Positions 24,525-38,255 of a DNA stretch of 38,255 bases are shown piece by piece. Below the pieces are notes generated by a model. It saw only the letters and a program-made list of their open reading frames with translations. It was not told the DNA's origin and did no database searches. The stretch lies in the NCBI GenBank assembly GCA_029861785.1, contig JAOTYR010000005.1, forward strand, positions 1 to 38,255. Reading direction: 5' to 3'. A program made the translations under genes and the position numbers. This DNA comes from Candidatus Nitrosopumilus sp. GTDB lineage: Archaea > Thermoproteota > Nitrososphaeria > Nitrososphaerales > Nitrosopumilaceae. How positions within the stretch are numbered: the first letter of the stretch is position 1; each line of letters starts with the position of its first letter.

Positions 24525-26096
24525 CTAGGTAATTTTTTTGAAAATCAATCCTTGTTTTTTTATTCCAATAACAACTACTACTGGAACCCCAATGTACATT
24601 CCGACATTTAAGAGAATCAGACTAATTCCATATCCTAAAACTTTAGCTTCAGAATCTAAATCTACATAGTTTAGAATAGATAGACTAGAGATCATTGGAG
24701 TAATTGTTATTTTTAGTGCCTCTCGAAACATTGGATATTCCCGCTGATAATCAGATATTTCTGGACTAAACGAATAATAGAATTCGTTAAATGCGTTCAT
24801 AAAAAAATTTCCTGATTTAGTTTGAAGAAACTTGTTTTCTCTAAGTTCTCTTAATTCTTGTACTTGCGGTGCTAGCTCCGAGCCAAAAGCTGCAGTTGCT
24901 ATGAGACAACCACCTCCATTAGTATTGGAGTTTGGAATAGTTTGATCCTGGATTGTCACAGCTTCTATAGGTAAAATTCTGTAAATGGTTCGTTTGCTGT
25001 GGGTTATTAGATACAAATAACCATCGGGTCCGCTCTCAATGTCTGTAATACAACCAAAACCAGTTCCTATGACCAAATCATCTATTGATTCATCTAGGTT
25101 AGCAACCTTGTCTTGAAGAGATGGATTGGAAAATTCAAACCCATCCCGATTTTCATTTAATTTAAAATTGTAGATATTTCCATTATTACAATCACCTACA
25201 AAAAGAGAATTTTGATAGTTGTTAGTTTCTGAAAATTGTACAAATGTTATTCCTGTAGGAGCTACTACTTTTTGCCAACTAAACTCCGGATCATTATATT
25301 CATAATCCAAGTATCCAGGAAGACGTAATTCTTCTGATTCAATTGCAGGACCCATAATTTTGTTCCATCCGCTGTTAAATTTTTCAGGAATCAAGTTGAT
25401 TTCATCAAAATCATCGTCTCCATTTTCAGTAGCCCATAAGTTTCCTGTAATAGGATCAATTGCAAGACCAAAGCTATTTCGAATTCCCATACCATAGTAA
25501 GACCCCTCAGGATCAACTCGTAAAATTACACTTGTATCCATGTAATCAGTAGTTTCAGGTGGAAAAATATTCTCAAGTAATTTATTTTGTAATGGGCCAT
25601 ACTTTCCAGTATCACCTATAACTGCATACACTTGGTTATCAAGACCTGTTACCAATGCCCCTCCATTGTGATAGTCATTTGAAGGAAGTTCTTTGAGAAG
25701 TATAGGGTTTATCAGGGAATCTTCATTCCACTCATACTTGTAAATTCGATTTCCAAATGTTTCTCCCTTGTAGTCTGCCTCAGTGAGATAGAGATAGACA
25801 CTAGAGCCAACATTGGTTATTCCTAATAATCCATTTTCACCAATTGGATTTACTGGAACCTCTAAGACAGGCTCATCTTGTATTATCCCATCTTTAACTA
25901 GAGTTACAAAACCATCTTTTTCTAAAACCAGAATATCTTCTCCCACAAACGTCATGGCAGTATAACCCCAACCACCTTCTTTGGCAAATTCCTCTAACAC
26001 AAGGTTTTCATCAAATAGAATTGGTTCTGCAAGTATTGGGGGAAAATTTAAAAATGCAAAACTTGCCAATAAAATTAAAAACACAATTATTTTCAT
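24525..26096 (-). CDS. Secreted glucose/sorbosone dehydrogenase-like protein with CFI-box membrane C-terminus
   Basis: 523 residues. A signal peptide ends near LAEP (residue 23). Residues 30-370 form a six-bladed propeller of the PQQ-type GSDH family (GENGLLGI, LYLTEA, GGALVTG, VYAVIGDTG, LRVDPEGS, GIRNSFGLAIDP, ATENGDDDFDEIN). A short linker (TIPNSNTNGGG) leads to a C-terminal module at 394-523 that starts GGGCLIATAAFGSELAPQ, the CFI-box type. It continues through FNEFYYSFSP to a hydrophobic segment and a basic tail. The same module ends the unrelated protein at 31284. The propeller would lie outside the membrane; substrate and cofactor use are unproven. Confidence 0.83.
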   Translation of the reverse strand: MKIIVFLILLASFAFLNFPPILAEPILFDENLVLEEFAKEGGWGYTAMTFVGEDILVLEKDGFVTLVKDGIIQDEPVLEVPVNPIGENGLLGITNVGSSVYLYLTEADYKGETFGNRIYKYEWNEDSLINPILLKELPSNDYHNGGALVTGLDNQVYAVIGDTGKYGPLQNKLLENIFPPETTDYMDTSVILRVDPEGSYYGMGIRNSFGLAIDPITGNLWATENGDDDFDEINLIPEKFNSGWNKIMGPAIESEELRLPGYLDYEYNDPEFSWQKVVAPTGITFVQFSETNNYQNSLFVGDCNNGNIYNFKLNENRDGFEFSNPSLQDKVANLDESIDDLVIGTGFGCITDIESGPDGYLYLITHSKRTIYRILPIEAVTIQDQTIPNSNTNGGGCLIATAAFGSELAPQVQELRELRENKFLQTKSGNFFMNAFNEFYYSFSPEISDYQREYPMFREALKITITPMISSLSILNYVDLDSEAKVLGYGISLILLNVGMYIGVPVVVVIGIKKQGLIFKKIT

Positions 26097-31173: not shown

Positions 31174-31283
31174 GAGGTCTTGAGATGAAATAAGAACAGA
31201 TTCATAGATAGCTAGTCTTCTTTTTTTTAAAAATCAAGTCAATACGCTTAAGTTCATACAATATTTGAAAAATATTGAAAATA

Positions 31284-32681
31284 ATGAAAAGACTGGGAGT
31301 GCTGATAATGGTATTTATGTTAATTTTTTCTCCATTTCTAAGTCCTTCTTATGCTCAAATTAGCAATCAAAGAATACCGGCATCATCTACAGAAATAATT
31401 TCTTTAGGTCCATTGGAGATACAGTTGACATATTCATTGGATATTGATATTGCCATGCCAAAAAAAATAACTGCTGGTAATACAGAAGAGGTAAGAATAA
31501 CTCCATCTAATGGAATGCTAGATACTACTTTTTTCTTTAATGGTGAGTCTTATGGACCCTATTCAAATTCGATTGGTTTGGGGGAAGAAAAAGATATTGC
31601 AATTGATGTTCCAATTTTAAATGTATATGCAAAACCTGAAATCAATGCACATCCTATGGTAAAAGGTCCTGCAAGTGTATCTCCAGACTTGTTGCAGTTT
31701 AACACAACGACTACCAAATCAGTTCAAATTCATGTGAATGACAATATTGGAACCAATAACTCCATTGACTTGCAAATACCAATTACTTTATTTTTAGAAG
31801 TTGGAGCAGAGCTTGATATTTTGTTAGCCTCTAAAACATACCCTGTTGAAACTTTTGAGATAAATCGATTTACAACCATCTCAAGCTATATCCCAATTGA
31901 AAAATTTGTTTACACCAATCTGAATTTAGAAGTAGATGAGAGTTCAAAAGAACAATACATAAAAATAAACCCAATTGTTACTTTGGGGAAAACAACCTTG
32001 TATGATTATCCTGTAAATATCTACATTGATGACAAACTCATACAAACCGTACAGTCTTCTCGTTGGTCTGGAGATATTTTGCTAGGATATGAGACACATT
32101 CAGTAAAGGCTGAATTTACTCAAACTCAAGACAAGTCAAACTCTGCAATAATCTATCTTGAATCAATAGATTTTGAATCGGTGTCTTTGAAGAAACCAAC
32201 TTCTCTCAGTACGACAGATTCTGGAAATCTGCAATGTGGGTCTGGCACCCATGAAGAGAATGGTCAATGCGTGGCAGATGGCTTATTTGGAGGGGGATGT
32301 CTGATTGCTACTGCCACATATGGCTCAGAGCTAGCACCCCAGGTTCAAAACCTCAGAGAAATCCGAGATAATCAATTTTTGGGTACAGAATCAGGTATGA
32401 ATTTTATTAATTTCTTCAATGAATTCTACTATTCCTTCAGTCCGGCAATTGCAGATTATGAGCGTGAAAATCCAGTATTTCGTGAAGCAGTCAAACTGGC
32501 TTTGACTCCAATGATTTCAAGTCTGTCAATTCTGAATCATGTAGATATGGATTCAGAAGCTGAAATGCTGGGTTATGGTTTTAGCTTGATCCTTCTAAAT
32601 GTTGGAATGTATTTTGTTGCACCTGCAGTAGTAATTATTGGAATTAAAAAGAAATTTTTTTACTTTTTAACACTTGATTGA
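31284..32681 (+). CDS. Surface protein with CFI-box membrane C-terminus
   Basis: 465 residues from ATG 31284 (TTG 31275 would add three). A signal peptide ends at SYAQ. The ectodomain is long and beta-rich, without a family I recognise; CGSGTHEENGQC near 310-325 could form a disulfide loop just before the terminal module. From about residue 336 comes GGGCLIATATYGSELAPQ and a 130-residue module, about 70% identical by my count and without gaps to the end of the GSDH-like protein at 24525. It includes FNEFYYSFSP, PMISSLSILN and a hydrophobic anchor near the end. The tail (KKKFFYFLTLD) differs. Confidence 0.75.
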   Translation: MKRLGVLIMVFMLIFSPFLSPSYAQISNQRIPASSTEIISLGPLEIQLTYSLDIDIAMPKKITAGNTEEVRITPSNGMLDTTFFFNGESYGPYSNSIGLGEEKDIAIDVPILNVYAKPEINAHPMVKGPASVSPDLLQFNTTTTKSVQIHVNDNIGTNNSIDLQIPITLFLEVGAELDILLASKTYPVETFEINRFTTISSYIPIEKFVYTNLNLEVDESSKEQYIKINPIVTLGKTTLYDYPVNIYIDDKLIQTVQSSRWSGDILLGYETHSVKAEFTQTQDKSNSAIIYLESIDFESVSLKKPTSLSTTDSGNLQCGSGTHEENGQCVADGLFGGGCLIATATYGSELAPQVQNLREIRDNQFLGTESGMNFINFFNEFYYSFSPAIADYERENPVFREAVKLALTPMISSLSILNHVDMDSEAEMLGYGFSLILLNVGMYFVAPAVVIIGIKKKFFYFLTLD

Positions 32682-33582: not shown

Positions 33583-33684
33583 TTATTGAGATTTAAGATA
33601 ATCTTCAAAATGACACTTGGTAGAACAGTGAGAAAGAAGAGAATCTTCAAGCTCTTCTCCACAATTTTTACATTTTTCGTTCAT
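33583..33684 (-). CDS. 33-residue zinc-finger microprotein
   Basis: The product begins MNEKCKNCGEELED and ends HCSTKCHFEDYLKSQ. Two pairs, C-x2-C and (H)C-x3-C, make a complete small zinc-binding unit. A GGGCGATAGTG purine-rich stretch lies directly before the ATG. Below usual gene-calling length, but the four spaced cysteines argue for a real gene. Its role could be nucleic-acid or protein binding; unknown. Confidence 0.6.
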   Translation of the reverse strand: MNEKCKNCGEELEDSLLSHCSTKCHFEDYLKSQ

Positions 33685-33953: not shown

Positions 33954-35717
33954 ATGATAATCTACATGTATACAACTTTTCTATTTGGTTTTCTGAAAAT
34001 CAAGTCAAACTTAATACCTAAATCCAAAAACAAAAAACGTTTGAAACTTTCTTATCTTCTTATTCTTGGAATAATTACCACGTTTTCATTTGGAGTTGAC
34101 TATGCATTTGCAGCCAACGTTAGTATTACACAAGGATCATCAGTTCCAGGTTGTGAGACTACAAAGGAATGTTTCATTCCATATGAGGTATCTATTCCAG
34201 TTGGAGGACAGGTAGTATGGTTAAATGATGATTCAGCAGCGCATACAGTAACTGGAGGCAGTTCTGCTGATAGTCCTTCAGGAGTATTTGATTCTAGTTT
34301 GTTTATGGCAGAAACCACTTTTTCGTATACTTTTTCTGAGGCAGGAGTTTATCTTTATTTTTGTATGGTTCATCCTTGGATGCAAGGAATTGTAAATGTT
34401 GGAAACTATTCAGATTCTTCACATTCATCCACAGAAAAAACAATTACAGTACAAATGAATGGGCCTTCAACATTTTATCTAGATGTACCAAACCAAATTA
34501 TTCGAGCAACAGTAGAGATTCAAAATTTTAATCCTAGTGAGGGACAATATATCATGAAAATTACTCATCGCCCAACAAACACAGTACTAAAAGACTTTGA
34601 AATTTTTCCCAAATCTGCTGTCAATGATCTGTGGACTGTTCAGATTGCATATCCAATTTTAGAATCAGACATTAGGGTTGAAGACCAAGTATTGCTTGGG
34701 GAATATGAAATCCATATTAGAACAGAATTTGGTTCGCAAACTGCAACTACAACATTTTCAATTTTAGAATCATCCTCACAATCTAATACATCCCGAGTAT
34801 CAGAAACTAAAATTGTTATCGATGTTCAAGCAAACAAAAGGTTCTATGATGAAAATGAAAAAATTCAAGTAACTGGCACAGTTAATAAATTGCTTTATGG
34901 AAATAAAATTTCCCTAAGAATTATTTCTCCTAATAGCAATATCATTTTGGTTGATCAGGTCCCAATTGAATCAGATGGTATCTTTAGTTATGATTTGAGT
35001 GCCAACAATAGTCTTTTTGTAGAAAACGGAGATTATACAATTCAATTAATTTATGGTAAAGAAGGAATCAACAAGAATATTTTGTTTTCATATGTTGGAC
35101 ATGCATCTACTTCTAAACCAATACCAACACCTGAACCTGTTGTAGAGCAGATGCCTGAACCTGTTGTAGAGCAGATGCCTGAACCTGTTGTAGAGCAGAT
35201 GCCTGAACCTGTTGTAGAGCAGATGCCTGAGCCGACAAAAGAAAATGAGGAAACTGACTTTTCTGATCAACAAGTTGTTTCTCAAGGAGAAGAATCTGGG
35301 GAACTTTCCAACATTCTTCTTTACTTAGGAATGGTAATTGCTGTATCTGTAGTGATAGCAGTTGTCATGAAATTAAAGAATTCCGAAAAAGACGATGAGC
35401 TTACTGAAAACTATGATTATGAAGATGATTCAATTATAGAAGAGGAACCACTTACAAAAAAATTACAAGACACCGAAGTAACTCCACAATTAACTCCTAC
35501 AAACAGCATACAGATAGACCAAATAATTAAAGACAAAATTCAAAAGATTACAAAATTACAGGAAAACCAACTCGGGGATCATGACAGATTAGAAAACTTT
35601 AAAAAATCTCTGAAAGAAACAGGAACTTTTTCAAAAGTAGATAATGAATATTTTGAAAAAATATATGAAACATACAAAAAAATTAAAAAGATAGATTCGG
35701 ATAATAAAAACGAATGA
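33954..35717 (+). CDS. Membrane-anchored cupredoxin with Ig-like domain, PEPVVEQM repeats and cytoplasmic tail
   Basis: 587 residues. A long N-terminal leader (1-30) precedes a signal segment ending at DYAFA (53). Residues 55-150 are a plastocyanin-like domain with type I copper ligands H97, C137, H140 and M143 (AAHTV and YFCMVHPWM). A second beta domain (about 160-270) and an Ig-like domain (285-380) follow. Residues 393-425 hold four PEPVVEQM repeats. A membrane helix spans 453-472, then comes an acidic linker and a tail with KITKLQENQLGDHDRLE. The Ig domain, helix and tail match the protein at 30406. It may link extracellular copper electron transfer to a cytoplasmic partner (inference). 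Confidence 0.85.
   Translation: MIIYMYTTFLFGFLKIKSNLIPKSKNKKRLKLSYLLILGIITTFSFGVDYAFAANVSITQGSSVPGCETTKECFIPYEVSIPVGGQVVWLNDDSAAHTVTGGSSADSPSGVFDSSLFMAETTFSYTFSEAGVYLYFCMVHPWMQGIVNVGNYSDSSHSSTEKTITVQMNGPSTFYLDVPNQIIRATVEIQNFNPSEGQYIMKITHRPTNTVLKDFEIFPKSAVNDLWTVQIAYPILESDIRVEDQVLLGEYEIHIRTEFGSQTATTTFSILESSSQSNTSRVSETKIVIDVQANKRFYDENEKIQVTGTVNKLLYGNKISLRIISPNSNIILVDQVPIESDGIFSYDLSANNSLFVENGDYTIQLIYGKEGINKNILFSYVGHASTSKPIPTPEPVVEQMPEPVVEQMPEPVVEQMPEPVVEQMPEPTKENEETDFSDQQVVSQGEESGELSNILLYLGMVIAVSVVIAVVMKLKNSEKDDELTENYDYEDDSIIEEEPLTKKLQDTEVTPQLTPTNSIQIDQIIKDKIQKITKLQENQLGDHDRLENFKKSLKETGTFSKVDNEYFEKIYETYKKIKKIDSDNKNE
35130..35225 (+). repeat. Four exact 24-base coding repeats
   Basis: Four identical 24-base units encode PEPVVEQM in frame, followed by a partial unit encoding PEPTKE. 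The identity at synonymous positions points to recent expansion. It forms a rigid proline/glutamate stalk before the membrane helix. Confidence 0.95.
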
Positions 35718-36238: not shown

Positions 36239-36340
36239 ATGTCAAGGAGAATCATACTTTTGGGCCACTCTAGGAGCATGACTCAGTTAGGGTTACTTGG
36301 AGAGGGATTTCTTAATGGTCTTAATTCTCATCAAGAGTAA
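36239..36340 (+). CDS. Possible 33-residue peptide
   Basis: The frame starts MSRRIILLGHSRSM and ends at TAA overlapping the end of the minus-strand gene at 36321. A TATA-like CATTTAAAC is about 30 bases upstream and a GGTGG lies 13 bases before the ATG. No known family; it may be fortuitous. Confidence 0.3.
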   Translation: MSRRIILLGHSRSMTQLGLLGEGFLNGLNSHQE

Positions 36341-36806
36341 AAATCCCGTGAGCAGCTGCCATAAATGCCAAAACAAATCCATCCAAAGTTCGCATGTGTA
36401 CTACCTCATCAACACTCAATTCATCAATTTGGTTTTTCAGTCCTTTTTGATTGTCTGCAAACAAAATATCGTTAAGCTTTTTTCTATAAACCAATTTTCT
36501 AATCAAAGTTGGCAAATCAGGATTCTCTTTGTAATTTGGGTGATCAGGAATTGGGGAGAAATCAATTGCCAGGTATTTCCTTTTCTTCTCACGTCTAATG
36601 TAATTAATAATAGGCTGTGCCTCTTCGTTTTCATAAATTACACATAAATCCACATCCACTAGGGATTTTAGATGTTTGATGAACTTGAAATGTCTCAGAC
36701 GTCCCTCGTGTTTTTCTACCTTTAGTGTATCTATATTTCCAGAGTCCAATAACATTACTGAATAGATCACCTTATCACAATAAACCCCGATGCTTGTTTT
36801 TGTCAT
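36321..36806 (-). CDS. Unknown cytoplasmic protein
   Basis: 161 residues. The start (SIGVYCDKVIYSVMLLDSG) has the rhythm of an RNase H/actin-like first hairpin, but no catalytic set can be assigned. A basic middle (YIRREKKRKYLAIDFSP) and a final helix (DGFVLAFMAAAHGIF) follow. There is no signal peptide. I do not recognise it. It lies in the accessory region between the response regulator and the small-gene cluster, with no close operon partner. Confidence 0.6.
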   Translation of the reverse strand: MTKTSIGVYCDKVIYSVMLLDSGNIDTLKVEKHEGRLRHFKFIKHLKSLVDVDLCVIYENEEAQPIINYIRREKKRKYLAIDFSPIPDHPNYKENPDLPTLIRKLVYRKKLNDILFADNQKGLKNQIDELSVDEVVHMRTLDGFVLAFMAAAHGIFTLDEN

Positions 36807-36861
36807 TATTTCTTTTTGTAGGTTTGTCTTTGTAAACTTTGAGTGTTACAAATTAAAAAAG

Positions 36862-36871: not shown

Positions 36872-36947
36872 CTAAAAAAATTTAGCCATGGAATTCAAAG
36901 ATTTGTAAACACTTTGTTTTGTATTTGTCAAAAATAATCTGGAATTA

Positions 36948-36958
36948 AAATTAAATTG
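36948..36958 (+). promoter_or_regulatory. TATA box for the 28-residue membrane peptide
   Basis: ATTAAATTGAC is centred about 27 bases before ATG 36981. Confidence 0.4.
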
Positions 36959-36980: not shown

Positions 36981-37067
36981 ATGTTAGGTCCAATAGGTTT
37001 CATATTGACTGCCATTGCAGGCCTTGTTTCGCTTTGGGCGTATCTTGAAAAGGTTGTAGGAATATAG
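36981..37067 (+). CDS. 28-residue single-span membrane microprotein
   Basis: The product MLGPIGFILTAIAGLVSLWA continues with YLEKVVGI. It is one hydrophobic helix with a short polar C-terminus. A TATA box at leaderless distance supports expression. Such peptides often serve as small subunits of membrane complexes; no partner is indicated. Confidence 0.5.
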   Translation: MLGPIGFILTAIAGLVSLWAYLEKVVGI

Positions 37068-37111
37068 ATACACCAGAATTACTGAAACTTTAGTACAAAT
37101 CGTTCATTGAT

Positions 37112-37119
37112 CTTATATA
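37112..37119 (+). promoter_or_regulatory. TATA box for the 41-residue zinc finger
   Basis: CTTATATA is centred about 26 bases before ATG 37141. Confidence 0.4.
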
Positions 37120-37140
37120 CAAATTTCTTCAATGCATACC

Positions 37141-37266
37141 ATGACAAACATTACAATGTGGAAATGTTTTAGATGTGAGTTGACATTTAATGAAGAATCG
37201 CATGCCAACTTTCACAAAAACCTTTCAAACCACAATTCCCAAAAAGTAATGTTCTCATGTGCCTAA
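37141..37266 (+). CDS. 41-residue C2H2-type zinc-finger protein
   Basis: WKCFRCELTFNEESHANFH gives C-x2-C followed by H-x3-H, with a further histidine in NLSNH, as in a single C2H2 finger. It starts at ATG 37141 (ATG 37132 is in frame) at leaderless distance from a TATA box. It may bind DNA or protein. Its 3' end overlaps the convergent gene at 37255 by 12 bases. Confidence 0.6.
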   Translation: MTNITMWKCFRCELTFNEESHANFHKNLSNHNSQKVMFSCA

Positions 37267-37362
37267 TTCCCTAATTTTGCTGGCACACTCATCGCAGAGC
37301 ATAATCTCAATGCCTATGACATCTACTGGCTTTTTATTTTCATGATTACATGATATGGTCAT
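37255..37362 (-). CDS. 35-residue zinc-binding microprotein
   Basis: The product starts MTISCNHENKKPVDVIG and ends EIMLCDECASKIRELGT. C5/H7 and C-x2-C form a likely metal site, similar to half of a zinc ribbon. A TTTAAATTAA box on the minus strand near 37391 is about 27-29 bases upstream. Function unknown. Confidence 0.55.
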   Translation of the reverse strand: MTISCNHENKKPVDVIGIEIMLCDECASKIRELGT

Positions 37363-37400
37363 TTTCTTATATTCTAGGGTAGAAAATTAATTTAAATTTT

Positions 37401-37586
37401 TTATGGTAAAATATCAAAAACAGGCAGAGGAGAACCTGAAGAGGACCTCGGAGTTTTAGAATCTTGAACATCATCCATGTATTCTTCAAATAACTCCTGT
37501 TGATACATACCACCCACCACAAAAACAGCAGATATTATTCCTATTGAGCAGGCAAGAGCTATTGCTAGAATTACTATTGTCTTCAA
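37401..37586 (-). CDS. 61-residue membrane or secreted small protein
   Basis: An N-terminal hydrophobic helix (3-27, KTIVILAIALACSIGIISAV) is followed by an acidic segment (EEYMDDVQD) and a Ser/Pro tail. It starts at TTG 37586, divergent from the gene at 37619 with only 32 bases between the start codons. No family recognised. Confidence 0.5.
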   Translation of the reverse strand: MKTIVILAIALACSIGIISAVFVVGGMYQQELFEEYMDDVQDSKTPRSSSGSPLPVFDILP

Positions 37587-37618
37587 TTAAGATAAATAAA
37601 AAGTTCTAAAAAATAAAG

Positions 37619-37885
37619 ATGTTATCGAATCTAAAAATAGTAAAAAGCCAGATTCATTCAAATATTATCATGAAAGAAATGCTCCTAAGTCTTTGTACGT
37701 GTACCGCAATAGAGATCATGACTGCAATTGGAGTTACCTTCTATTTGCTTTACCTGAATGAGCCTATTTTGGCCCTGATTTCGACTATAGTCTTTGCAAA
37801 ATTAATTGCATTTCATTTTACTATGGATTATTTTGACAAAAAACAAAGAAAAAAATCTCAATCTTTAAGTCTAAAAAAGATTTAA
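37619..37885 (+). CDS. 88-residue two-helix membrane protein
   Basis: Two membrane helices (about 22-46 and 49-66) are flanked by a basic C-terminus (KKQRKKSQSLSLKK). TAAATAAAA at 37592-37600 is about 23 bases upstream of the ATG. It is followed after eight bases by the zinc-ribbon frame. Function unknown. Confidence 0.6.
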   Translation: MLSNLKIVKSQIHSNIIMKEMLLSLCTCTAIEIMTAIGVTFYLLYLNEPILALISTIVFAKLIAFHFTMDYFDKKQRKKSQSLSLKKI

Positions 37886-37892
37886 TCTACTT

Positions 37893-37992
37893 GTGAAACC
37901 TCAATCTTGCAGAAATTGTGGAAAAGAAATATTTCAAAACCAGAGTCTGTCCTAAGTGTGGTAGAGACACCAATCAAGATGATCCAGAATAG
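37893..37992 (+). pseudogene. Double zinc-ribbon microprotein broken by a one-base insertion
   Basis: GTG 37893 opens VKPQSCRNCGKEIF, which soon stops. The +1 frame continues as KTRVCPKCGRDTNQDDPE to TAG 37992. Removing one T from the TTT at 37932-37934 gives a 32-residue protein with two C-x2-C knuckles, a standard double zinc ribbon. It lies eight bases after the previous gene and seven before the next, so it belongs to that cluster. Confidence 0.6.
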
Positions 37993-37998
37993 CAAATT

Positions 37999-38255
37999 AT
38001 GAAATCCTTTAAAATCATCGCACTGGGAAGTGTTTGCTTTATTGTAGTTTTTATTGTAGCAGTTCTTCTTGCAATCTCTCTTGGAGATATAATTGGTGAT
38101 CAAAATGAGCGAAACTATAGCAGATTTGTCCAAAATGTAGATGCTTTAACCAACACATTTAGAGAACCAGTAGAAGAGTGTGCAAAAAAGACAATTGAAG
38201 GGCAAGATAATGATTGCATAATTGCAGTTGATGAAGAATATAGAATTCAGTTTGG
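37999..38255 (+). CDS. Membrane-anchored protein, 3' end outside window
   Basis: 85 codons are visible. A hydrophobic helix (about 5-28, IIALGSVCFIVVFIVAVLLA) is followed by an acidic outer part with two cysteines (EECAKK and NDCII) that may pair. It follows the zinc-ribbon frame by six bases and is probably cotranscribed with it. The family is not recognised. Confidence 0.65.
   Translation, partial: MKSFKIIALGSVCFIVVFIVAVLLAISLGDIIGDQNERNYSRFVQNVDALTNTFREPVEECAKKTIEGQDNDCIIAVDEEYRIQF

Follow-up and report, generated by a model that had tools for sequence, protein, structure and literature searches.

A block of conserved micro-genes for small zinc and membrane proteins in one Nitrosopumilaceae-type genus

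Results

A run of very small genes is retained across the genus

The window analysed here, a complete contig of 38,255 bases from an assembly of 1.39 Mb with a completeness of 76.6%, ends in a run of very small genes, and every reading frame named in an earlier note on this DNA was recovered at its position in the window's ORF list. Along the contig these genes encode a one-span membrane peptide of 28 aa (36981..37067, plus strand), a 41-aa protein with a single C2H2 zinc finger (37141..37266, plus strand), a 35-aa zinc-type protein (37255..37362, minus strand), a 61-aa one-span membrane protein (37401..37586, minus strand), a 71-aa two-span membrane protein (37670..37885, plus strand), a double zinc ribbon that is frameshifted in the window (37893..37992, plus strand) and an anchored protein whose frame runs off the contig end (37999..38255, plus strand). 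A 161-aa protein of unknown family (36321..36806, minus strand) is the divergent neighbour of the block. The spread of these proteins was surveyed in 151 genomes of the family, ten of them from this genus, and the block was compared with seven relative loci (L033-L039), which are the surroundings of matches to the 41-aa protein in seven further genus genomes. By tblastn, the 161-, 28-, 41-, 35-, 61- and 71-aa proteins were found at all seven loci in identical order and orientation, and the order of the tiny ORFs is retained in seven of the nine other genus genomes. In two of these relatives (L033 and L039) the gap between the C2H2 and 35-aa genes is widened to about 1 and 1.8 kb. Two genus genomes, G089 and G095 (72 and 87% complete), gave no match to the 161-, 28-, 35-, 61- or 71-aa proteins.

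Coding constraint was measured as pooled pairwise pN/pS over eight sequences per gene (four for the ribbon), and the L037 row of the 71-aa protein enters both the alignment and the calculation without its first nine residues. In the true frame, pN/pS was 0.15 for the ribbon gene (four relatives), 0.20 for the C2H2 gene, 0.21 for the 35-aa gene, 0.27 for the 71-aa gene, 0.33 for the 28-aa gene and 0.50 for the 61-aa gene, the least constrained of the six, and values of 0.76-6.0 were obtained in four of the five alternative frames. Frame r1, which is antisense and shares its third positions with the true frame, gave 0.26-0.58, and for the 61-aa gene it came near the true frame (0.58 versus 0.50). 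Stops occur in r1 in all sequences for four genes, in four of eight for the 35-aa gene and in two of eight for the 28-aa gene; given these few stops, the strand of the 35- and 28-aa genes was chosen from the lower pN/pS, the conserved starts and the protein patterns. Taken together, these results show that the six tested ORFs evolve as protein-coding genes under purifying selection, and that the ORFs of 28, 35 and 41 aa are genes, as their conservation demonstrates. The suggestion that the small ORFs are real genes is thus borne out by the order kept in seven relatives and by pN/pS values of 0.15-0.50, and the cysteine and histidine patterns pointed out in the earlier note are conserved in the relatives. 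A search of Rfam gave no match, leaving an RNA-gene reading unsupported, and none of the five intact micro-proteins of the window matched an NCBIfam model above its cut-off.

The 28- and 71-aa membrane proteins and the 161-aa neighbour

Hydropathy analysis placed a membrane-span-like stretch in the 28-, 61- and 71-aa proteins and in the anchored protein, with the weakest in the 28-aa peptide. Alignment of the eight upstream regions of the 28-aa gene revealed a conserved TCTGGAATTA...ATTAAAT (36938..36956, plus strand), located 25-43 nt before the ATG, which by prediction may be the promoter of this gene. The 28-aa family was matched in 13 of the 151 genomes, eight of this genus and five others at E values of 0.006-0.009. 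One of these outside matches, in G041 of genus g4 (L109:1498-1572), is a frame of about 24 aa with a TTG start that reads LSPIGFCVTAFAVILSILAYFK and is a probable relative of the 28-aa peptide, judging by its sequence; the four other outside matches are short pieces, three of them within longer frames.

The 71-aa protein had been described as a membrane protein of 88 residues, and the ORF list does contain a frame of 88 aa (37619-37885, plus strand). The gene is real, but its length has to be corrected, since the conserved start lies at 37670 and the 17 residues upstream of it are unconserved. The family is present in 38 of the 151 genomes and in eight genera, one of them solely at an E value of 0.009. 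Among 30 loci taken as best matches, CxC was found in 29, CxCxxxE in 28 and FHF in 29. In a two-span hairpin both ends are on one side of the membrane, so a surface metal site is possible; the CxC and FHF motifs would lie at the same membrane face and might bind metal. The one-span 28-aa peptide and the 71-aa hairpin are probably accessory membrane subunits. A pathway link for the 71-aa protein via its neighbours was rejected because these vary between genera.

The 161-aa protein was matched in eight of the 151 genomes, all of this genus, and searches of Pfam, NCBIfam and PDB gave it no noteworthy match. Its structure model is poor (mean pLDDT 43) and shows three strands followed by alternating helices and strands at low confidence. 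Between the 161- and 28-aa genes, TTTGTAAAC occurs twice (36829-36837 and 36902-36910), with TTTG within two bases after each copy, and upstream of the 161-aa gene the relatives have retained a AAAGTTTACAAA-like sequence. Elsewhere on the contig, a secreted cupredoxin-like protein with tandem PEPVVEQM repeats is encoded at 33954-35717 (plus strand); its cupredoxin part (query about 1420-1701) matches many other contigs of the genus, indicating a multi-copy family. Two otherwise different proteins (24525-26096, minus strand; 31275-32681, plus strand) have a common C-terminal GGGCLIATA..GSELAPQVQ..LRE.

The 35- and 61-aa genes and the arrangement of promoters

The 61-aa protein has an acidic tail and a TTG start, and the 35-aa gene starts 38 nt behind it. 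The region between the 61- and 71-aa genes (37587..37669, no strand assigned) is predicted to be a divergent promoter region, in which AATRGTAAAA is present in all eight sequences and, on the minus strand, a TATA-like CTTTATTTTT in six of eight. The gap of 38 nt between the 61- and 35-aa genes and that of 7 nt between the 71-aa gene and the ribbon suggest two small operons, and a promoter of its own is therefore unnecessary for either the 35-aa gene or the ribbon. It had been proposed that several of these genes have TATA boxes of their own at leaderless spacing. For the C2H2 gene this is clear, with the TATA box 28 nt before the ATG; the 28-, 61- and 71-aa genes plausibly have one too. It does not hold for the 35-aa gene and the ribbon, which follow so closely behind other genes.

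The ligands of the 35-aa protein (C-x-H-x15-C-x2-C; C5, H7, C23 and C26) are invariant in all eight sequences. In its structure model (mean pLDDT 78.5, pTM 0.41), strands at 10-15 and 18-23 are followed by a helix at 24-34, with C23 and C26 at the helix start. A treble clef consists of knuckle ligands and a beta-hairpin, followed by a helix that begins at a C-x2-C pair; the hairpin and helix are modelled here, but the first pair, C-x-H, is atypical. A Foldseek search with the model gave no significant match (best E 4.1). The 35-aa family was matched in nine of the 151 genomes, eight of the genus plus one partial match (E 0.004), and the 61-aa family in 13, eight of the genus plus five partial matches (E 2.5e-4 to 0.007), four of which cover the N-terminal span alone. 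The 35-aa protein may be a minimal zinc-stabilised module that is co-produced with the one-span 61-aa membrane protein.

The ribbon, the anchored protein and the 33-aa protein

The double zinc ribbon had been called broken, and its frameshift in the window was confirmed, with intact copies of 33-34 aa in four relatives (L034, L035, L036 and L039). The site of this frameshift is about 300 nt away from the contig end, and an assembly error may explain it. In three of the seven relatives the ribbon was not found at the block position, and one of these (G018) has a copy elsewhere. The ribbon family is present in 60 of the 151 genomes; by a count from the match list, 22 of these fall below 1e-12, and they belong to four genera. 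Along its length, the anchored protein had a match in only one of the seven relatives (L039, 159 aa); short weak matches in L035-L037 correspond to the leader region of another protein. Downstream of the block, L033, L034 and L039 encode an additional short zinc-ribbon protein (DRFYEP.NWD...CGKCGH) and, at a greater distance, a small protein that by eye resembles winged-helix regulators.

The 33-aa zinc-type protein (CxxCG...CxxxC; 33583..33684, minus strand), which the earlier note had mentioned at a distance of 3 kb, is present and belongs to a real family, found in 36 of the 151 genomes at E <= 0.001 with up to three matches per genome. It is not part of the block, however; within the genus, the 33-aa gene and the block are on one contig solely in G000 and G071.

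A widespread single C2H2 finger

The 41-aa protein carries the ligands C9-x2-C12-x12-H25-x5-H31, unchanged in all eight genus proteins, and this spacing agrees with the classical C-x2-4-C-x12-H-x3-6-H. In 39 additional loci (34 distinct), picked as best matches, C-x2-C-x12-H-x3-6-H was present in every one. The usual C2H2 core has a Phe four residues after the second Cys and a Leu before the first His; F16 is invariant in all eight genus proteins, and the usual Leu position is occupied by Ala22 in all eight. Matches in the seven other genus genomes show 73-88% identity, and the family as a whole was found in 133 of the 151 genomes at E <= 0.01, with one to six matches per genome. At the level of the order, the C2H2 profile matched 89 of 250 genomes, 80 of this family and nine of one other. 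All eight genus proteins gave a weak match to DUF7128 (PF23447; best E 3.2e-4), and the window protein scored 16.7 bits, below the gathering cut-off of 25.7. The protein also weakly resembles human zinc finger 224, and PDB sequence matches to the C2H2 profile were weak (best 0.062).

C2H2 genes have clade-specific upstream elements

The C2H2 genes of the genus carry T(C/T)GTTCAT upstream, with the TATA box 28 nt before the ATG. In the window the element is TCGTTCAT; 37099..37119 (plus strand) holds the ATCGTTCAT element and the TATA box. The pattern ATCGTTCATN4-8TTAWATA was found as a single copy in each of six of the ten genus genomes, always at the C2H2 gene, and the reversed-pattern control gave none in the genus genomes; the remaining two block genomes have one-base variants of it. 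The octamer TCGTTCAT alone occurs also at 25 places (redundant) away from C2H2 genes in the examined loci.

In a first sample, WWCGY-N3-10-TATA preceded 28 of 42 C2H2 genes. For comparison, WWCGY stood at this spacing before 12 of the 628 TATA-like heptamers found elsewhere in the examined loci; many of these may not be promoters. In a second sample, this pattern was found at none of 20 C2H2 genes. Post hoc, four of these 20 (L217, L219, L222 and L223) fail only at the last TATA base, and five (L215, L224, L225, L230 and L231) have AATCATGCAATATC before TTATAAG. A TATA-anchored comparison, which excluded the genus C2H2 genes, placed 45 of 62 genes in 17 clusters with weak shared positions. A universal C2H2 operator was rejected because the first-sample pattern is absent from all 20 second-sample genes, and this failure, together with the weak cluster positions, narrowed the claim to clade-specific elements: the C2H2 clades have conserved elements of their own.

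On the sequence evidence, the C2H2 protein is most likely a DNA-binding micro-regulator with its own clade-conserved upstream element, made from an mRNA that is predicted to be leaderless. We infer that it may be autoregulated, perhaps by acting, singly or together with a partner, on the promoter of its own gene; a partner is possible because a single finger reads few bases only. A much wider version, in which near-universal self-regulating single-C2H2 micro-factors act throughout the Nitrosopumilaceae, with paralogue clades co-evolving with their own elements and one of them controlling the linked membrane micro-proteins in this genus, would be a long shot.

Alternatively, the C2H2 protein might bind RNA or protein instead of regulating DNA, for example as an accessory factor of the ribosome or of RNA polymerase, which we consider rather unlikely. 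It is a single short finger, widespread and strongly conserved, and the DNA specificity of a lone finger is limited. In addition, ribosomal and polymerase subunits are among the small archaeal zinc proteins (PMC2253796). However, the conservation of promoter elements within clades points to regulation of these genes, possibly by their own products, and the copy number is variable, unlike that of core ribosomal subunits. A DNA-binding micro-regulator is the role that we prefer for the C2H2 protein.

One system or separate genes

The earlier note had imagined one regulatory or membrane system. In a more specific form, the 161-, 28- and 71-aa proteins, the 61/35-aa pair and the C2H2 protein would constitute a genus-specific membrane-signalling module, with the zinc proteins passing a signal from the membrane on to DNA. 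The preserved order in the eight block-bearing genomes speaks for such a module, as does the presence of the 161-, 35- and 61-aa genes in exactly the same eight of the ten genus genomes, which fits linked function; these three were not matched at full length in any of the 141 remaining family genomes, and by layout the 61- and 35-aa genes appear to be co-transcribed. However, the shared absence from G089 and G095 may be mere incompleteness of these assemblies, and the C2H2 and 35-aa genes are set well apart, by about 1-1.8 kb, in L033 and L039. The C2H2 and 71-aa families are present without the others in other genera, where the neighbours of the 71-aa gene also differ, and the probable relative of the 28-aa peptide in genus g4 occurs without the 35-, 61- and 161-aa genes, which leans further against a module confined to this genus. 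Moreover, one shared regulon was rejected, since visual comparison of the aligned upstream regions showed no element common to the block. Given the very different ranges of the genes, and with no shared promoter element seen by eye, one joint system is not supported and we regard the signalling module as improbable, while the conserved order in all eight block genomes leaves a looser link between the genes open.

It is hardly credible that the genes arose as ORFs by chance or are left over from a mobile element or provirus: many of these ORFs are in the size range where chance ORFs abound, the ribbon is frameshifted and C2H2-like micro-proteins are known from archaeal viruses (PMC3541406), but pN/pS is 0.15-0.50, the order is fixed in seven relatives, and no viral relative, PHROGs hit or Rfam match was found. 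In three pattern-based scans of a viral collection, no relative was confirmed for the C2H2, 35-aa or 161-aa proteins, and a viral origin was rejected on this ground; in PHROGs, the 28-, 41- and 35-aa proteins had no hit at E <= 0.1. Overall, we favour, with somewhat better than even confidence, the view that these micro-genes form a genuine block, passed on vertically within one Nitrosopumilaceae-type genus, and that the block does not work as one machine.

Discussion

Small zinc proteins are a recognised, under-annotated class in archaea (PMC6562870, PMC2253796, PMC3541406, PMC9258230). Among them, Brz is encoded beside the gene that it regulates, and in the opinion of the authors many such ORFs have been overlooked (PMC2253796, PMC6562870). 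In a literature search that covered titles and abstract openings, with subscription journals thinly represented, no paper on the present families in Thaumarchaeota was found. The block proteins are new members of this known class of archaeal zinc micro-proteins, which is mostly uncharacterised. The C2H2 family is the most interesting of them, being widespread in one archaeal family, whereas a study of 2013 reports no thaumarchaeal homologue of the C2H2 family of AFV1p06 (PMC3541406). If the C2H2 protein regulates transcription, a eukaryote-like finger would be at work in chromosomal regulation in archaea; the promoter element dedicated to it allows this role to be tested directly.

The haloarchaeal one-domain zinc finger micro-proteins (Brz and the Haloferax volcanii set) are likewise very small and have a zinc site. 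What defines the Brz class, however, is a CPxCG-like pattern, which is missing from the C2H2 and 35-aa proteins; here the pattern is present only in the ribbon of the relatives and in the 33-aa protein. As defined in PMC2253796, the CPxCG-related class has two Cys/His patterns 7-40 aa apart, with at least one CPxCG, CPxCx or CxxCG. Judged by eye, the ribbon of the relatives (CRNCG, CPKCG) and the 33-aa protein (CKNCG, CSTKC) belong to this class, whereas CFRCE of the C2H2 protein and CDECA of the 35-aa protein are without the Pro and Gly, and in the 35-aa protein the first ligand pair is C-x-H. Among Pfam families, the intact ribbon of L034 (33 aa) scored above the cut-off of Zn_Ribbon_1 (PF13240; 27.1 versus 25 bits) and below that of the double zinc ribbon family (DZR; 21.9 versus 27.3 bits), the copy in the window being frameshifted. 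AFV1p06, in turn, is a DNA-binding protein of an archaeal virus (PMC3541406), and like the family studied here it is short and has just one C2H2-like finger. In AFV1p06 a Glu replaces the fourth ligand histidine, whereas the C2H2 family described here keeps all four ligands and is chromosomal, occurring in 133 of the 151 genomes examined from one family.
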